This document shows, in pieces, positions 15,287 to 24,067 of a DNA stretch of 44,913 nt. The notes beneath the pieces were generated by a model. The model ran no database searches, was not told the origin of the DNA, and was given only the letters and a program-made list of their open reading frames with translations. This DNA comes from Erythrobacteraceae bacterium (GTDB taxonomy: Bacteria > Pseudomonadota > Alphaproteobacteria > Sphingomonadales > Sphingomonadaceae). The stretch lies in the NCBI GenBank assembly GCA_024642545.1, contig JAHEAW010000003.1, forward strand, positions 1 to 44,913, read 5' to 3'. The stretch's first letter is position 1, and every line of letters starts with the position of its first letter. The translations under genes and the position numbers were made by a program.

Positions 15287-17092
15287 CTACAAGGGACGGC
15301 AACCCTCCTTGAGCCATGCAAGGTCGCTGCCTTCAAGCTGCGGCGAGACAATCTCCCAAACCTTGGCGTGATAGCTGTTCCACCACTGTCTTTCGGTATC
15401 AGTCAGCAAGCCAACATCGATCATGGTTCGGTCAATCGGAACGTAAGTGAGCGTCTCGAAGCCAAGATAGGCGCCTTCCGCACCTTCGACTTTGCGCGGC
15501 TCAACCAGCACCAGATTTTCGATCCGGATGCCATATTCACCTGTTTTGTAATACCCGGGCTCGTTTGACAGGAACATACCGGCCTGCAGCGGTTCACCCG
15601 CCCCGACCTGTGTAGCGCTGCCTTTGGCAATGCGCTGCGGCCCTTCATGAACCGCCAGAAAACTGCCGACCCCGTGGCCAGTGCCATGAGCATAGTCGAC
15701 CCCTGCTTGCCACAGGAACTGCCGCGCCAGCACGTCAAGCGCGCCGCCGGGGGTGCCTTCTGGAAAAACGGCCATGTCCAGCGCAATGTGACCCTTCAGG
15801 ACGCGAGTGTAGCGGTCCTTGATTTCAGCCGAAGGTTCTCCCGGACCGATCCAAACGGTACGGGTAATGTCGGTGGTGCCGTCAAGATACTGGCCGCCTG
15901 AATCGACCAGATAGACGCTACCAGGCATAATCGCGAGATTGCTGTCTTCATCGACCCGGTAATGGCACAAGGCCCCGTGTGGGCCAGATGCAGAAATCGT
16001 ATCGAAAGACAGATCTTTCAGCTTGCCGGTCTGCTCGCGGAAGGCGCGCAGCTTTGCCGCCGCCGATAATTCGTCCTGCCCTCCCTTGGGCGCTTCGACA
16101 GATAGCCAATTGAGGAATTTCGAAACTGCCGCCCCGTCCCGCGCCTGCGCATCGCGGTGACCCTGCTGTTCGACCGGGTTCTTGATAGCCTTGGGCAAAA
16201 CTACAGGATCGCGGGCGGTAATGACTGTTGCCCCCCCATCTTCCAAAATCTGGAAAATCGCCGCAACACCGTTGTCCGGGTCAACCGCAACTTTCTTGCC
16301 CGACAGAGCCCCGAGAGCGGAAACGAATTCATCGCGCGGCCTGACGGTCACAGCATTGCCAAGATGCTGAACCAGCTCCGGCGTGACCTTTTCGGGCGCA
16401 ATGAACAGCTCTGCAGTGCCATCATCATGCGCGACAACGAAAGACAATGCGACAGGTGTGCGGTCAACATCGGCGCCGCGAATGTTGAGCAGCCATGCGA
16501 CCGAATCGAGTGCGCCGATGACGGCTGCATCGAGCCCTTCGTCCTTGAGCCAATCGGCTAGAACGGCGCGCTTTTCTGCGCTTGACTGGCCGGTATTGGC
16601 GTCATCCTGAATAAATGCCGCCGCTGCGGAGGGTTCGGGCTGGTCTTCCCATACGGCGTCGATCGGGTTGGTGCCGACTGTAACCAGTTCGCCGCCCGAT
16701 TTGGTCAGCGTGTCTGATACAGTTTTCGCCCAGGCGCGTGTGTGGAGCCACGCGTCAAAACCGATCTTTGCGCCTTGCTGAGTATTCCGCGCCAGCCAAG
16801 TCCCGATGCCGTCCTGCGGCACCTGACAATATTCATACAGATTACCGTCGACCTGCTCGCGCACCTGAATCGTATAACGCCCATCGACAAAGATCGCGGC
16901 CTTGTGGGCCAGCACCACGGCTGTCCCGGCCGATCCGCCGAAGCCGGTCAGCCAGGCCAGCCGCTGCGCATACCCGCCGACATATTCAGACATATGTTCA
17001 TCTGAGATGGGAACGACAAAGCCATCAAGGCCCTGCCTCTTCAGTTCTTCGCGCAAGGCAGAAAGACGGGCTTCATGGGTTTGCATCAGCAT
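15287..17092 (-). CDS. pepP: Xaa-Pro aminopeptidase (M24 family, long form)
   Basis: Cytosolic metallopeptidase removing the N-terminal residue before proline. The ATG at 17092 is chosen because AAAGGA lies 8 nt upstream; it gives 601 residues, as in the three-domain aminopeptidase P group (animal XPNPEP1-like), longer than E. coli PepP (about 440). Two N-terminal creatinase-like domains (about 1-310) precede the catalytic domain. The five metal ligands are seen in VYLVDSGGQYLDGTTDITR (two Asp), HGTGHGVGSFLAVHEGP (His), FLSNEPGYY (Glu) and GIRIENLV (Glu). It is divergent from the oligopeptidase B gene with only 37 bp between starts, so their promoters must overlap or lie within the genes. Confidence 0.95.
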   Translation of the reverse strand: MLMQTHEARLSALREELKRQGLDGFVVPISDEHMSEYVGGYAQRLAWLTGFGGSAGTAVVLAHKAAIFVDGRYTIQVREQVDGNLYEYCQVPQDGIGTWLARNTQQGAKIGFDAWLHTRAWAKTVSDTLTKSGGELVTVGTNPIDAVWEDQPEPSAAAAFIQDDANTGQSSAEKRAVLADWLKDEGLDAAVIGALDSVAWLLNIRGADVDRTPVALSFVVAHDDGTAELFIAPEKVTPELVQHLGNAVTVRPRDEFVSALGALSGKKVAVDPDNGVAAIFQILEDGGATVITARDPVVLPKAIKNPVEQQGHRDAQARDGAAVSKFLNWLSVEAPKGGQDELSAAAKLRAFREQTGKLKDLSFDTISASGPHGALCHYRVDEDSNLAIMPGSVYLVDSGGQYLDGTTDITRTVWIGPGEPSAEIKDRYTRVLKGHIALDMAVFPEGTPGGALDVLARQFLWQAGVDYAHGTGHGVGSFLAVHEGPQRIAKGSATQVGAGEPLQAGMFLSNEPGYYKTGEYGIRIENLVLVEPRKVEGAEGAYLGFETLTYVPIDRTMIDVGLLTDTERQWWNSYHAKVWEIVSPQLEGSDLAWLKEGCRPL

Positions 17093-17129
17093 GGTTGCGG
17101 TCCTTTCAATCCCCACATAGAGGCAGTGC

Positions 17130-19202
17130 ATGACCAATTCCAGTATTGCGGACATCAAAGCCGCGCCGATCGCTGCCAAAAAGCCGAAATCCACTACCCA
17201 TCACGGGATCACCATTACCGATGATTATGCCTGGCTGCGCGATCCCGGGTATCCTGCGGTCAGCCGCAAAAAGATTCTGGACCACCTCGAGGCAGAAAAT
17301 GCCTGGTACGAACAGCAGATGGCGCCGCACCAGCCGATGGTAGACCGATTGTTCAAGGAAATGCGAGGCCGGATCAAGGAAGCCGATTCGTCTGTTCCGC
17401 AAAAGGACGGCAACTGGCTGTATTGGGTTGAATATGAAGCAGGCGCGGAATATCGCAAATGGTACCGCAAACCTGTTGGCGGGGGCGAGCCGCAGCTGAT
17501 TCTGGACGAACCATCGCTGGCGCAGGGCAAAGACTATTTCAATCTCGGGTCAGCATCGGTCAGCAAGGATGGCACCAAGCTGGCCTATTCCTTCGATGAT
17601 AATGGTTCTGAACGGTTTACGGCCCGGATCAAGGATCTGGTGACCGACGCGCTTCTGCCCGATGAGATTACCGGCAGTCTTGGGGCGCTGGTCTGGTGTG
17701 CAGGCGATGCTGCGCTGATCTATAGTCTAGCCAATGAAAACTGGCGGACAGACAATGCGCGGCTGCACTGGTTAGGCCAGCCAGCGAGCGAGGATGTCGA
17801 ACTCTATCATGAAGATGATGAAGGCTTCCGCGTCGGGGCAGGACTGTCTGCCAATGAAGAATGGATTGTGATTGCCGCAGGCGATCATGAGACTGGCGAA
17901 AATTATCTGATCCCGACTGATAATCCTCTGGCCACACCAATTCTGGTAAAGGCACGCCAGCGCGGCGTGGAATATGATGTTGATGTGCGCGGCGAGACGC
18001 TGTTCATCCTTTCCAATGACACGCATGAGAATTTCCGGGTCGCCACCGCACCCCTTGAAAAGCCAAGCGAATGGACGACTATTCTTGGCGGGTCGAACGA
18101 TTTTTATATCACCGGTCTTGACCTGTTCCGCGAATTTTATGTGGTCGAAGGGCGCCGGGCAGGGCTCGATACGATTGAGCTGCGTTATTATGATGATCCG
18201 CATCGGGTCCAGTCAATCACCTTCCCCGAAGCAAGTTTTTGTGCCGGGCTGGGTGATAACCGCGAATGGCACACAGAGAAGCTGCGCCTATCTTACCAGA
18301 GCATGGTCAGTCCAGGCACGGTTTTCGATTATGACGTGAAGGAGCGCTCGCTCGAAACGCTGAAGGTTCAGGAAATACCGTCTGGTTACGATGCAGCGCT
18401 TTATACTACCGAGCGTCTGGAGATCAGCGCGCGTGACGGGACCAAGGTTCCGGTCAGCGTTGTTTACCGCAAGGACCGCGCGGCTCCGGGTCCGCTGCAC
18501 CTATATGGCTACGGCGCTTATGGGATTGCCATGGAGCCAGGCTTTTCAACCGCGCGGCTCAGTCTGGTTGATCGCGGCTTTGCCTATGCCATCGCGCATA
18601 TTCGCGGCGGCGATGATCTGGGCCGGGCGTGGTACAAGGCAGGTAAGCTGGAACAGCGGACCAACACTTTCACCGACTTTGTCGATGTAGCCAAGGGGCT
18701 GATTGATTATGGTCTGACGCAGGCCGGCCGGATCAGTATTTCGGGCGGTTCTGCTGGCGGCGAACTGATGGGGGCTGTGGTCAATTCCAACCCCGACCTG
18801 TTTGGCGCAGTGGTGGCGCATGTCCCGTTTGTCGATGTGCTTAACACCATGCTCGATGCGAGCTTGCCCCTTACGCCCGGCGAATGGCCTGAATGGGGCA
18901 ATCCGATTGAAGACAAGGCAGCGTTCGAACTGATTTGGTCCTACAGCCCTTATGATCAGGTCACAGCGCAGAACTATCCACCGATGCTGGTAACTGCCGG
19001 TCTTAACGATCCGCGGGTAACCTATTGGGAACCAGCCAAGTGGGTTGCCAAATTGCGCGAGGTCAAGACTGATCAGAATGCACTGCTTCTGAAAACCAAC
19101 ATGGGCGCTGGCCACGGCGGCAAGTCCGGACGGTTTGAGAGCCTGACTGAAACGGCTGAGGAGTTTGCCTTCATTCTATGGCAGCTGGGGATTGCCGAGT
19201 GA
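17130..19202 (+). CDS. ptrB: oligopeptidase B (prolyl oligopeptidase family S9A)
   Basis: Cytosolic serine peptidase that cuts short peptides after basic residues. The protein has 690 residues, the usual length for the family. The N-terminal part (about 1-405) is the beta-propeller that limits substrate size, with HHGITITDDYAWLRDP at the start. The alpha/beta-hydrolase domain follows, with the nucleophile in SISGGSAGGELMGA (~545), the aspartate in VTAGLNDPRVTYWEPAKW (~630) and the histidine in NMGAGHGGKSGRF (~665). The ATG at 17130 has AGAGG upstream at about the right distance. The stop overlaps the GTG of the thioesterase gene (GTGA), so they are coupled. Confidence 0.94.
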   Translation: MTNSSIADIKAAPIAAKKPKSTTHHGITITDDYAWLRDPGYPAVSRKKILDHLEAENAWYEQQMAPHQPMVDRLFKEMRGRIKEADSSVPQKDGNWLYWVEYEAGAEYRKWYRKPVGGGEPQLILDEPSLAQGKDYFNLGSASVSKDGTKLAYSFDDNGSERFTARIKDLVTDALLPDEITGSLGALVWCAGDAALIYSLANENWRTDNARLHWLGQPASEDVELYHEDDEGFRVGAGLSANEEWIVIAAGDHETGENYLIPTDNPLATPILVKARQRGVEYDVDVRGETLFILSNDTHENFRVATAPLEKPSEWTTILGGSNDFYITGLDLFREFYVVEGRRAGLDTIELRYYDDPHRVQSITFPEASFCAGLGDNREWHTEKLRLSYQSMVSPGTVFDYDVKERSLETLKVQEIPSGYDAALYTTERLEISARDGTKVPVSVVYRKDRAAPGPLHLYGYGAYGIAMEPGFSTARLSLVDRGFAYAIAHIRGGDDLGRAWYKAGKLEQRTNTFTDFVDVAKGLIDYGLTQAGRISISGGSAGGELMGAVVNSNPDLFGAVVAHVPFVDVLNTMLDASLPLTPGEWPEWGNPIEDKAAFELIWSYSPYDQVTAQNYPPMLVTAGLNDPRVTYWEPAKWVAKLREVKTDQNALLLKTNMGAGHGGKSGRFESLTETAEEFAFILWQLGIAE

Positions 19203-21552: not shown

Positions 21553-21590
21553 GCTTGGCTGCCGGACTGACCCAGCGGCAACTCCATACG

Positions 21591-21614
21591 AAAAAGGGGC
21601 CCCGAAGGACCCCT
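21591..21614 (-). terminator. intrinsic terminator with UUCG loop
   Basis: On the minus strand AGGGGTCC-TTCG-GGGCCCCT forms an 8-bp stem including one G-U pair, closed by a UUCG tetraloop and followed by TTTT. It ends either the EAL-protein transcript or the small 12-codon ORF, which stops 20 nt upstream of it. Confidence 0.85.
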
Positions 21615-21634
21615 AAACCGTATTCAAATCAAAT

Positions 21635-21673
21635 TCAGCCCGACTTGCCGGGGAAAAGCCAAAACCAGATCAT
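21635..21673 (-). CDS. possible small gene for a 12-residue hydrophobic peptide
   Basis: The minus strand reads MIWFWLFPGKSG and then TGA. An ideal Shine-Dalgarno AGGAGG lies 5 nt before the ATG at 21673, and a strong UUCG-loop terminator lies 20 nt after the stop. A weak promoter-like pair is seen upstream. The first seven residues are all hydrophobic or aromatic with two Trp, the last five are polar with one Lys, so the peptide could insert in or sit at a membrane. It resembles no peptide I can name. It is not a trp leader: no minus-strand gene follows. Alternatively it is a chance frame in the 3' UTR of the EAL gene (stop 60 nt upstream). Confidence 0.4.
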   Translation of the reverse strand: MIWFWLFPGKSG

Positions 21674-21699
21674 AAACGCCTCCTGCTTCAAATTGCAGG

Positions 21700-21731
21700 T
21701 TTATAATGCGTTAACCATCCTTGTTTGTAAA
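21700..21731 (-). promoter_or_regulatory. weak promoter-like elements before the 12-codon ORF
   Basis: TTTACA (21731-21726) and TTATAA/TATAAA (21706-21700) on the minus strand, with 19-20 nt between them, longer than the usual 17. A start near 21693 would give a leader of about 20 nt. TTAACCAT on the plus strand lies in the spacer (21711-21718). Confidence 0.3.
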
Positions 21732-21733
21732 GT

Positions 21734-24067
21734 TTAAACCATATTTGCCTTCCGGCCTGATTGGTTAAGTATCTGAAATTGCTTGAGAGAATGAATGGGC
21801 AAAGGATAGGAAATGGCATAACCCTGGGCAATATCGAGCCCAAATCCGGAAAGAATATTAAGCACTTGGTCCGATTCTATACCTTCTGCGACAACGGCGA
21901 TTCGCGCCTCGCGCCCGATGGCTAGCAGGTTCTTGACGATCGCCCGGGCCTTGCGGTTGTGGCGCACGGCATCGACGAACGATCGATCAATCTTCAATTC
22001 GTCAAACGGGAATTCAAGGAAGGTCTCAAGGCTGGCCGCGCCAACTCCGAAATCATCGAGAGAAATGCGCATGCCCTGAAGTTTGAGCTGCTCAATGATC
22101 CGCCGTGCAAGGGCCGGATCGATGATCTTGGACGTCTCGGTGATTTCCAGGATCAGTCGGCGGGGGTCGAAGCCAGTTTCGGCCAGCACTTCTTCGATCA
22201 TGCCGAGAAGGTTGGTATCATGCAGCAGGGTTGCAGAAATATTGACCGACAGACTGGGTTCCGGTGCGCATTCCCCCAATGAGATAAAGCCGCGGATTGC
22301 CTGCTCAAGCACGTGTCGGGTGAGATGTTCCATCCGGCCTGCCATCTCGCATTGTTCGATAAACTGCGATGGCGGAATGGGACCGCGCGTGGGATCGTCC
22401 CATCGTACTAAGGCTTCCGCGCCAATCATGACCCCGTTGTGCAGTGATATCTGCGGCTGATAAACCACAAAAATCTCACCCTTGTTCAGCGCGCTATCGA
22501 TCCGGGCCTGAAGCGAGATATTCCATAGCCGCTCACTTTCGCTGGTTTCCTCGGCAATGCTTACCGGGCGGTGGGCCTCGCTGCTTTGTTCTGCAGCAGT
22601 AAGCGCCATGGCCACCCTTTGCCGCCCTTTGGCACTGAGAGTGCGATCAATACCAAAGGTGATGCCAGCATCCACGGCCGTATCGCCCACGATCAAGGGC
22701 TGCGCAAAGAGCGCGCGAACACCGCGAAGATGCTGGGAAAGTTCCTGCATGTCGGGCTCGGCACTCAGCCAGGCGAGATAGCGCCCACCGCCGATATAAA
22801 TCTGCAATTTGCTGTCGGTAACCTTCAGCCGGTCCGCAACGCGCAAGATGTAATCGGCGTGCAGTTCGTCGGGCAGTGTGGATAGAACTTCATCCAGCCT
22901 GTGTATCTTGGCCACTACCAAGGCAGCAGGGTCCAGATCCTTGTCCAACTGTTGCTCCAGCGCTCTGAAGGTCGGCAATTTCGTCGCCTCGTCAGTCAGC
23001 GCAAACCTGCTTTGCCAACGCTCCCTCAGTCTGAGGGCTGCATAAGACCCCAAGAGCGCAATCGAGGTGGAAAGGTTGGCTCTGATGCCATACTGCGCCA
23101 GAATCCAGACAAGCGCTGGGATAGCCGCACCAATTGCAAAGTAGCCAGCATGGCGCGGACGAGGTCCCCTGGCCCTTGCTGCAAGCAACAGCAGGATTGC
23201 GGCAAATGCCAGAAACACCTGCAAGCTGCTGGGACTGTGGCCAAGCCCGGCCTTCAGGGTTTCGGCTGCATAGATCGATACATAGCTGGCGGGCAGATCA
23301 ATTTGCCCGGGGATATTGGCGACGACATCGGACCGGTTGGAAAACTGGCTCGCCAAGCCGATGACAACATTTTTACCAGCAAACCGGGACAGATTGCCTG
23401 GGGCAGCCGCATCATCTTTGACATTGGCAACTTTGGACAGGTCGCTGTGCGGAATGCTGGACGGCGCAAAACTGTAAACGATATTGATATCTTGATTGGC
23501 GGGGCTGCGAAAATTGGCCAAGGATACAGGCAGCGTTTCCTTCAATCCTTTGTCGGTCTGGATCATCATCGGCATCGACCAGGTGAAACCCATGAAATCG
23601 ACAAAGCGATCATTGGGTACTGTGGCTGCCTTTCCTGCAATCTTTGGAAGAGTGCCCTCAAGATCGTTTTTGCCATCAACGTTGGTAACTACCTTGCGCA
23701 CCAGTATGATACGCGAACCCAGCTTCAGGATGGCGTCATGCAGGGCTTGGTCCGCTGCCGCCTCCGATGGCTTGTCGAATTGGACGTCGACAAAGACACG
23801 GTTTACTCCGGCTGTACCTAGATTTTGCAGCGCTCGTGCCAGCCGGAACCGGCCGCCGGGATTGTCGGGATCGGCAAGATTTTCATTGGCGCCGATAAAC
23901 ACGATGTCGCCCGATGCCTTTTGTTCAGACAGTCGTGCCTGAATATGCCAGACAATGTTATCAAGCGGGCTCAACAAGACCTGCGAAACACCCAGCGCAA
24001 TGACGCACGCGATCAGCACCTGCCTTACGCGGTCGATATGCCAGATCTGCTTTAGCTTCGATATCAT
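21734..24067 (-). CDS. CHASE2 sensor - degenerate GGDEF - EAL c-di-GMP phosphodiesterase
   Basis: Membrane protein of 777 residues that probably hydrolyses cyclic di-GMP. A membrane segment near residues 15-33 precedes a periplasmic CHASE2 domain (about 35-275), then hydrophobic segments between ~280 and 345. A GGDEF-like domain follows (~350-500), but its active site reads IGGGRYLAW instead of GG[D/E]EF, so it should not make c-di-GMP. The EAL domain (~520-765) looks intact: GAEALVRW, the SVNIS asparagine, LEITETS, SLDDFGVG, ELKIDRSF and VAEGIES, the residues known for metal and substrate binding. The ATG at 24067 is first in frame. The 190-bp region before it carries GGTTAAC and GTTAACC repeats. 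It is not adjacent to any other motility or biofilm gene here. Confidence 0.92.
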   Translation of the reverse strand: MISKLKQIWHIDRVRQVLIACVIALGVSQVLLSPLDNIVWHIQARLSEQKASGDIVFIGANENLADPDNPGGRFRLARALQNLGTAGVNRVFVDVQFDKPSEAAADQALHDAILKLGSRIILVRKVVTNVDGKNDLEGTLPKIAGKAATVPNDRFVDFMGFTWSMPMMIQTDKGLKETLPVSLANFRSPANQDINIVYSFAPSSIPHSDLSKVANVKDDAAAPGNLSRFAGKNVVIGLASQFSNRSDVVANIPGQIDLPASYVSIYAAETLKAGLGHSPSSLQVFLAFAAILLLLAARARGPRPRHAGYFAIGAAIPALVWILAQYGIRANLSTSIALLGSYAALRLRERWQSRFALTDEATKLPTFRALEQQLDKDLDPAALVVAKIHRLDEVLSTLPDELHADYILRVADRLKVTDSKLQIYIGGGRYLAWLSAEPDMQELSQHLRGVRALFAQPLIVGDTAVDAGITFGIDRTLSAKGRQRVAMALTAAEQSSEAHRPVSIAEETSESERLWNISLQARIDSALNKGEIFVVYQPQISLHNGVMIGAEALVRWDDPTRGPIPPSQFIEQCEMAGRMEHLTRHVLEQAIRGFISLGECAPEPSLSVNISATLLHDTNLLGMIEEVLAETGFDPRRLILEITETSKIIDPALARRIIEQLKLQGMRISLDDFGVGAASLETFLEFPFDELKIDRSFVDAVRHNRKARAIVKNLLAIGREARIAVVAEGIESDQVLNILSGFGLDIAQGYAISYPLPIHSLKQFQILNQSGRKANMV

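Follow-up and report, generated by a model that had tools for sequence, protein, structure and literature searches.

A conserved microprotein gene behind one group of CHASE2-EAL genes in one bacterial family, and its possible role beside a predicted c-di-GMP phosphodiesterase

The question raised by this locus is whether an open reading frame (ORF) of 12 codons, lying directly behind the gene for a CHASE2-EAL protein, is a gene in its own right and, if so, what its product may do. The window studied here is the whole stretch of 44,913 nucleotides of DNA that was analysed. A first-pass annotation of this stretch had described an AGGAGG Shine-Dalgarno (SD) sequence, a 5-nt spacer, an ATG, 12 codons, a TGA and, 20 nt later, a UUCG terminator, and direct reading of the sequence reproduces each of these elements exactly. 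The features of the locus are the following:

21635..21673, minus strand: microprotein ORF of 12 codons, ATG at 21673, peptide MIWFWLFPGKSG, TGA ending at 21635 (read directly)
21679..21684, minus strand: Shine-Dalgarno sequence AGGAGG, with the 5-nt spacer CGTTT before the ATG (read directly)
21682..21699, minus strand: leader hairpin CCTGC(AATTTGAA)GCAGG, whose 3' arm overlaps the SD
21703..21731, minus strand: promoter-like block TTTACA-N17-CATTAT, beginning 2 nt past the EAL stop
21711..21718, plus strand: TTAACCAT box (ATGGTTAA on the minus strand), identical to a CtrA half-site
21590..21614, minus strand: intrinsic terminator with UUCG loop and T-run
21734..24067, minus strand: CHASE2-EAL protein of 777 amino acids (aa), the partner gene, with its stop TAA at 21736-21734

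The terminator is formed by the stem AGGGGTCC-TTCG-GGGCCCCT at 21614-21595, which starts 20 nt past the TGA of the microprotein and is followed by T's. The 777 aa partner contains Pfam domains EAL (5.6e-60) and CHASE2 (7.4e-8); its middle part probably represents, in our reading, a degenerate GGDEF-like domain, and the protein is a predicted c-di-GMP phosphodiesterase. Downstream of the microgene lies a Flavin_Reduct gene in convergent orientation. Read on the plus strand, the SD hairpin (21682-21699) is followed by TTTATAAT and could terminate this convergent flavin reductase gene.

The microprotein family emerges only when the locus is used as an anchor. A nucleotide pattern for MIWFWLF matched the window alone among 298 genomes of the family, and the literal peptide thus looks private to the species; among named genomes, where records near the window may be left out, the pattern had one match, in Kiritimatiellae. 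Hits of a WLFPGKSG pattern in three further genomes were rejected as chance, out-of-frame reads of a bamA-like gene, which we take to be bamA itself. Two genomes of this genus can be aligned with the window at the corresponding locus (73% over about 155 nt); an SD and the ORF end LFPGKSG-stop are kept in place, and the ORF reads MFRFWDWLFPGKSG and MWDFWNWLFPGKSG. The upstream block, CTTTACAAACAA(A/G)GATGGTTAACGCATT, differs in a single base, and the terminator is the same.

The same position beside CHASE2-EAL genes in relatives had been named by the first-pass annotation as the place to look, with loss of the ORF there as the argument against a gene. Of an initial 18 CHASE2-EAL loci, most are followed by a tiny ORF that shares the aromatic core. 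Another 100 loci were drawn among the matches listed in a profile search with the CHASE2-GGDEF part, which 143 of the 298 family genomes match at E ≤ 1e-30; the first 80 of these loci were taken by ranking, with one skipped, and the final 20 were selected manually so that second copies would be covered. Overall, a tiny ORF of 10-41 codons was identified at 101 of the 118 examined loci, in 101 genomes from 43 genera of one bacterial family, which bears out the proposal of a genuine coding-type gene of very small size and runs counter to loss in relatives. An automatic test, which required a start codon, 4 or more of the 6 SD letters, 8-60 codons, and W.W or FW, within 420 nt, was passed at 85 of the 118 loci, vs. 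6 on the reverse strand and a mean of 6.65 (range 4-12) in 20 first-order resampled sets; the motif W.W|FW was chosen after the first 18 loci had been inspected, and by our count 73 of the 100 later loci pass automatically. The total of 101 consists of these 85 ORFs, 4 with a weaker SD and 12 recognised by eye, the last ranging from MSIWDYLFGGRWGSGGSKG or MAWSIYDWFFG to weak ones such as MWIIEALFGTGRR; among the 16 non-automatic ORFs, those of L015, L023 and L069 are without a W-x-W core, and L101, with a possible degenerate peptide, was counted among the loci lacking the ORF. Genome G004 carries a second, near-identical microgene copy at a contig edge (L006:1-111, at the start of contig G004:C38; cf. 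L004:601-760), next to which the downstream gene recurs in a slightly altered version; either the assembly mixes strains or the locus is duplicated.

The peptides are 10-41 residues long (median 21), with 99 distinct sequences among the 101, and most members carry variants of the core G-[F/I]-W-[D/E/S]-W-L-F-G-G. A W-x-[WYF] core is found in 91 of the 101 peptides. In these cores, F or I occupies position -1 in 69 peptides; position +1 holds D in 54, E in 9 and S in 13, and position +2 holds W in 74; L (43) or I (18) is found at position +3, F at +4 in 43, and G at +5 in 57. By eye, we read the hydrophobic core as about 6 residues long, which is not enough to cross a membrane. Most members exceed that of the window in length, and many of the longer ones carry a basic N-terminal tail. 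These features bear on the proposal of the first-pass annotation that the product may be a membrane-active hydrophobic peptide. The window peptide is a short, divergent member of the W-x-W family, with W-F-W in place of the W-D-W of most members and hence no acidic residue between the tryptophans.

Two coding tests indicate that it is the peptide that has been maintained. For 22 disjoint pairs of equal length, the in-frame pS is 0.320 and the pN 0.092, vs. pS/pN of 0.120/0.137 and 0.109/0.148 in the two shifted frames; these pairs were required to have at least 60% peptide likeness, which favours a low pN. A second test took 18 disjoint pairs on the sole criterion of how close their EAL proteins are; it removes this bias and gives a weaker result, with an in-frame pS of 0.335 and pN of 0.153 vs. 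0.166/0.190 and 0.149/0.204 in the shifted frames, 20 of 38 pairs having been dropped for unequal ORF length. The synonymous excess in the proposed frame only points to selection on a peptide rather than on an RNA or a 3' UTR. The test covers the family rather than the window peptide, and the window's own copy could be decaying. A structured non-coding RNA is likewise not favoured, since the 146-nt strand folds just a little better than shuffled sequences (z -1.5; 16 of 200 shuffles as good); no Rfam match was found in the window at gathering scores. The earlier suggestion that the ORF could be a 3' UTR feature accounts neither for the selection on the peptide nor for genome G160, discussed below, where the microgene with its leader stands apart from the EAL gene. 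No match in Pfam or NCBIfam was found at E ≤ 1 for six longer members (23-35 aa) of the 101, the 12-mer of the window being too short for these scans.

The microgene does not accompany every CHASE2-EAL gene. A tree based on the EAL part places 14 CHASE2-EAL loci together (local support 91), none of them with the ORF, and the ORF is present at 101 of the other 104 loci. The label for ORF presence requires 4 changes on this tree vs. 16.2 when shuffled, the tree being a FastTree reconstruction with local supports and many unresolved forks. Eight genomes hold one linked and one unlinked CHASE2-EAL copy, with the ORF at one only. The paralogue clade, whose 14 sampled loci are without the microgene, includes L131, L134, L137, L140 and L142-L144. 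The EAL motif is kept in 98 of the 101 linked enzymes and DD.G (of DD[FY]G type) in all 101, as expected of phosphodiesterases. The form DDFG is seen in 0 of the 17 loci without the ORF, which have mostly DDYG, vs. 52 of the 101 linked ones.

Three exceptions lie outside the paralogue clade, viz. genomes G263, G126 and G160. At G263 only a possible degenerate peptide, MSFVSFIQWGGGVVKG, is seen, and at G126 the enzyme is present with no peptide recognisable by locus inspection or profile search. The pair is split in G160, where the microgene (L175, on contig G160:C4) and the CHASE2-EAL gene (L176, on G160:C3) lie on different contigs. By eye, the G160 microgene is followed by a terminator and preceded by a leader resembling the leaders of its relatives. 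Compared with genome G006, its downstream neighbour matches at 80% over 1,186 nt; leader and microgene together match at 81% over 152 nt, and the enzyme gene matches alone, at 74% over 2,282 nt. These matches place the break between the EAL stop and the leader, so that the leader stayed with the microgene; because the latter keeps leader, terminator and neighbour with the enzyme elsewhere, the two can act apart.

A microprotein profile searched against whole genomes gave one hit at E ≤ 1e-3 in each of 53 genomes. Of these 53 hits, 52 lie immediately behind a CHASE2-EAL gene, and the remaining one is in G160, whose CHASE2-EAL gene is on another contig; none of these 53 genomes is without CHASE2-EAL. 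As the profile was built from peptides of these same genomes, finding them is circular, but their position is not. The profile overlooks short members; even at E ≤ 0.1 it does not recover the 12-mer of the window. G003 (69% complete) and G005, both of the same genus as the window, lack the enzyme, and neither a pattern match nor a profile hit was found in them; since the 12-mer itself is missed, this does not prove that short members are absent there. A class sample of 279 genomes yielded a single peptide match (E ≤ 0.001), which fell in the same family, with short members escaping the profile, and the CHASE2-GGDEF matches outside the family reach only to about position 341 of 498, i.e. the CHASE2 part. 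In an order sample of 147 genomes, all 41 that match CHASE2-GGDEF belong to the window's family (the non-family share of the 147 is not given). The CHASE2-GGDEF part had no match among plasmids at E ≤ 1e-10. For the neighbouring ald gene, the best plasmid match was Qipengyuania citrea, a Sphingomonadales species, which lends no more than indirect support to the order named in the first-pass annotation.

The leaders of the microgenes carry conserved signals of their own. The promoter had been called weak in the first-pass annotation, and by sigma-70 consensus this holds, the promoter-like block having 9 of 12 letters, with 5 such sites in the region vs. 3.3 expected; however, the block recurs between genomes, as the arrangement TTnAC...GGTTAA is found in 44 of 101 leaders, vs. 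0.16 expected. GGTTAA or TTAACC lies between the EAL stop and the ATG at 84 of the 101 loci (mean 6.7 and maximum 14 in 200 resamplings). The exact TTAACCAT occurs in 31 of 101 leaders, vs. 0 of 101 EAL-coding control stretches and 1 of 17 loci without the ORF, and full TTAA-N7-TTAA sites occur in only 8 of 101. In a passage of PMC3692519, TTAACCAT is given as the CtrA half-site of Caulobacter. A sequence match of this type is present at the promoter block of the window (21711-21718), and the TTAACC box suggests CtrA timing without amounting to proof of CtrA control; part of PMC9756655 describes CtrA as interlinked elsewhere with c-di-GMP. A terminator is found at most 110 nt past 91 of the 101 ORFs, mostly 20-30 nt behind the stop, vs. 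5 in one resampled set.

Pairing of the SD in the window leader is 0.72 vs. 0.52 in shuffled sequences. It is 0.756 vs. 0.569 in a group of 53 loci with short leaders (30 in the top tenth), 0.737 vs. 0.547 in the 39 non-redundant short leaders (20 in the top tenth), and 0.565 vs. 0.589 in the 48 loci with long leaders (5 in the top tenth). With a transcription start about 7 nt past the -10, the 5' arm of the SD hairpin would be partly outside the short transcript. Among loci L008-L144, short leaders, with the ATG at most 74 nt from the EAL stop, often show TTTACAAAC...GGTTAACG and the SD hairpin, and long leaders often show a TTGTTAACCAT-like box and no SD hairpin signal; the longer, basic-tailed peptides seem commoner with the long-leader type.

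We consider that these observations are best explained by an autonomous microprotein gene, perhaps CtrA-controlled, whose product acts with the predicted CHASE2-EAL phosphodiesterase, a reading to which we give a probability of about 0.55. Of this reading, the comparisons establish the conserved coding gene, its tie to one CHASE2-EAL group, the terminator and the upstream box. The promoter block behind the EAL stop, with its CtrA-type box, would start an mRNA of about 100 nt ending at the UUCG terminator, and read-through from the EAL gene may add to this transcript. The transcript would encode a member of the family of peptides of 10-41 residues that have an aromatic core, typically G-F/I-W-D-W-L-F-G-G. 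Because the presence of the ORF tracks the lineage of the enzyme and not any CHASE2-EAL copy, we infer that the product works with that enzyme, most likely acting in trans together with the CHASE2-EAL protein that its own genome encodes; the split in G160, which did not abolish the microgene, suits such an action. From its CHASE2 architecture the enzyme is taken to be membrane-anchored and, the core being by eye too short to cross the membrane, contact at the inner-membrane surface is the simplest picture; the peptide may bind the anchored, predicted phosphodiesterase, or the membrane surface around it, and tune its output in either direction, so that c-di-GMP breakdown would follow the CtrA state of the cell. 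Somewhat more tentatively, and at rather less than even odds, the undescribed W-x-W microproteins may constitute a dedicated, CtrA-timed partner of one CHASE2-EAL group, i.e. a two-gene signalling unit whose second half annotation has missed.

A conserved neighbourhood can, however, reflect shared regulation instead of contact. The product may be a real microprotein independent of the enzyme, viz. a small membrane-surface or cell-cycle protein that shares only its regulation and neighbourhood with CHASE2-EAL, and the promoter block, box and terminator of its own agree with this, as does the G160 microgene, which retained its leader and downstream neighbour when the pair was split. We regard this explanation as unlikely, since the ORF tracks one CHASE2-EAL group and skips the paralogues even within one genome, and 0 of the 53 genomes with a profile hit (E ≤ 1e-3) are without CHASE2-EAL.

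It is improbable that the microprotein is instead an exported peptide ligand, sensed by the extracytoplasmic CHASE2 domain as an autocrine signal. The pairing with a CHASE2 sensor, the Gly-rich tails and the divergence outside the core would suit such a ligand, and the window has two candidate peptidase genes (15287-17194 and 17130-19202), which we recognised by eye and presume to encode peptidases, but no obvious signal peptide is seen by eye. Even less probable is a small peptide akin to type I toxins, its SD concealed by the leader. This would account for the SD sequestration in the short-leader group (20 of 39 in the top tenth, as above), but the 48 long-leader loci lack it, the microgene is tied to one gene, and a consensus scan, in itself weak evidence, showed no plus-strand promoter-like site nearby, such as an antisense RNA antitoxin would need. 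The core is by eye too short for a membrane span, and the membrane-spanning helix of such toxins (about 18 or more residues) is not found, judging from lengths of 10-41 and a core of about 6 residues. A regulatory leader or attenuator, in which the level of charged tRNA-Trp would be read at the Trp codons and act through the terminator, is hardly credible despite the Trp-rich tiny ORF, the terminator about 20 nt further on, and a next frame on the same strand at 31 of 101 loci (by a GC3 heuristic, the genes not being identified), since by the same heuristic the next frame is on the opposite strand at 70 of 101, conservation extends beyond the Trp codons to recurring F/I, D/E, L/F and G positions, with in-frame selection, and in the window, as the first-pass annotation had rightly held against an attenuator, the downstream gene is the convergent Flavin_Reduct gene, leaving none on the same strand to control.

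The preferred reading, that of a microprotein acting with the CHASE2-EAL enzyme, concerns a gene of 10-41 codons found in 43 genera, whose peptide is under selection and is in neither Pfam nor NCBIfam (six members searched), and which, as far as the profile can see, almost always lies beside one signalling enzyme. If it is a true modulator, a c-di-GMP phosphodiesterase would have a partner of very small size, and c-di-GMP turnover would be tied to the CtrA circuit by a simple, testable link. These results also indicate that locus-anchored comparison can validate very short ORFs. Literature searches with words of the peptide core found no paper, and those on the gene pair, small proteins, sRNAs and CtrA in sphingomonads gave no description of the peptide among the matches listed. 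Within the limits of these searches, the microprotein family is new, of a known general kind, viz. the small partners of signalling proteins.

Several known systems are comparable in part. The leader peptides trpL and, in Sinorhizobium, peTrpL consist of a tiny Trp-rich leader ORF followed by an intrinsic terminator, and the microgene is likewise a tiny Trp-rich ORF followed by such a terminator; unlike them, it has no constant downstream operon, its conserved residues extend beyond Trp, and it is linked to the gene of a c-di-GMP enzyme. The MgrB-PhoQ type represents a small-protein partner of a membrane sensor. The microprotein resembles MgrB in being very small, in having a separate gene, and in that it may tune a membrane sensor enzyme in trans; it differs in its length of 10-41 aa, in having, by eye, no membrane-spanning segment, and in its CHASE2-EAL partner, and we know of no sequence relation between the two. 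The upstream TTAACCAT (31/101) and TTAACC or GGTTAA (84/101) are features, known from sequence alone, that the microgene shares with CtrA-regulated genes of Alphaproteobacteria, as far as a passage of PMC3692519 describes these. Part of PMC3509220 describes how BluF, a degenerate EAL protein without phosphodiesterase activity, controls the ycgZ-ymgABC operon via a repressor. The products of that operon are, like the putative microprotein partner, small proteins genetically coupled to an EAL-domain protein, whereas in the present case, set against that account (PMC3509220), the enzyme retains its EAL motifs and a conserved box lies upstream of the microgene itself.
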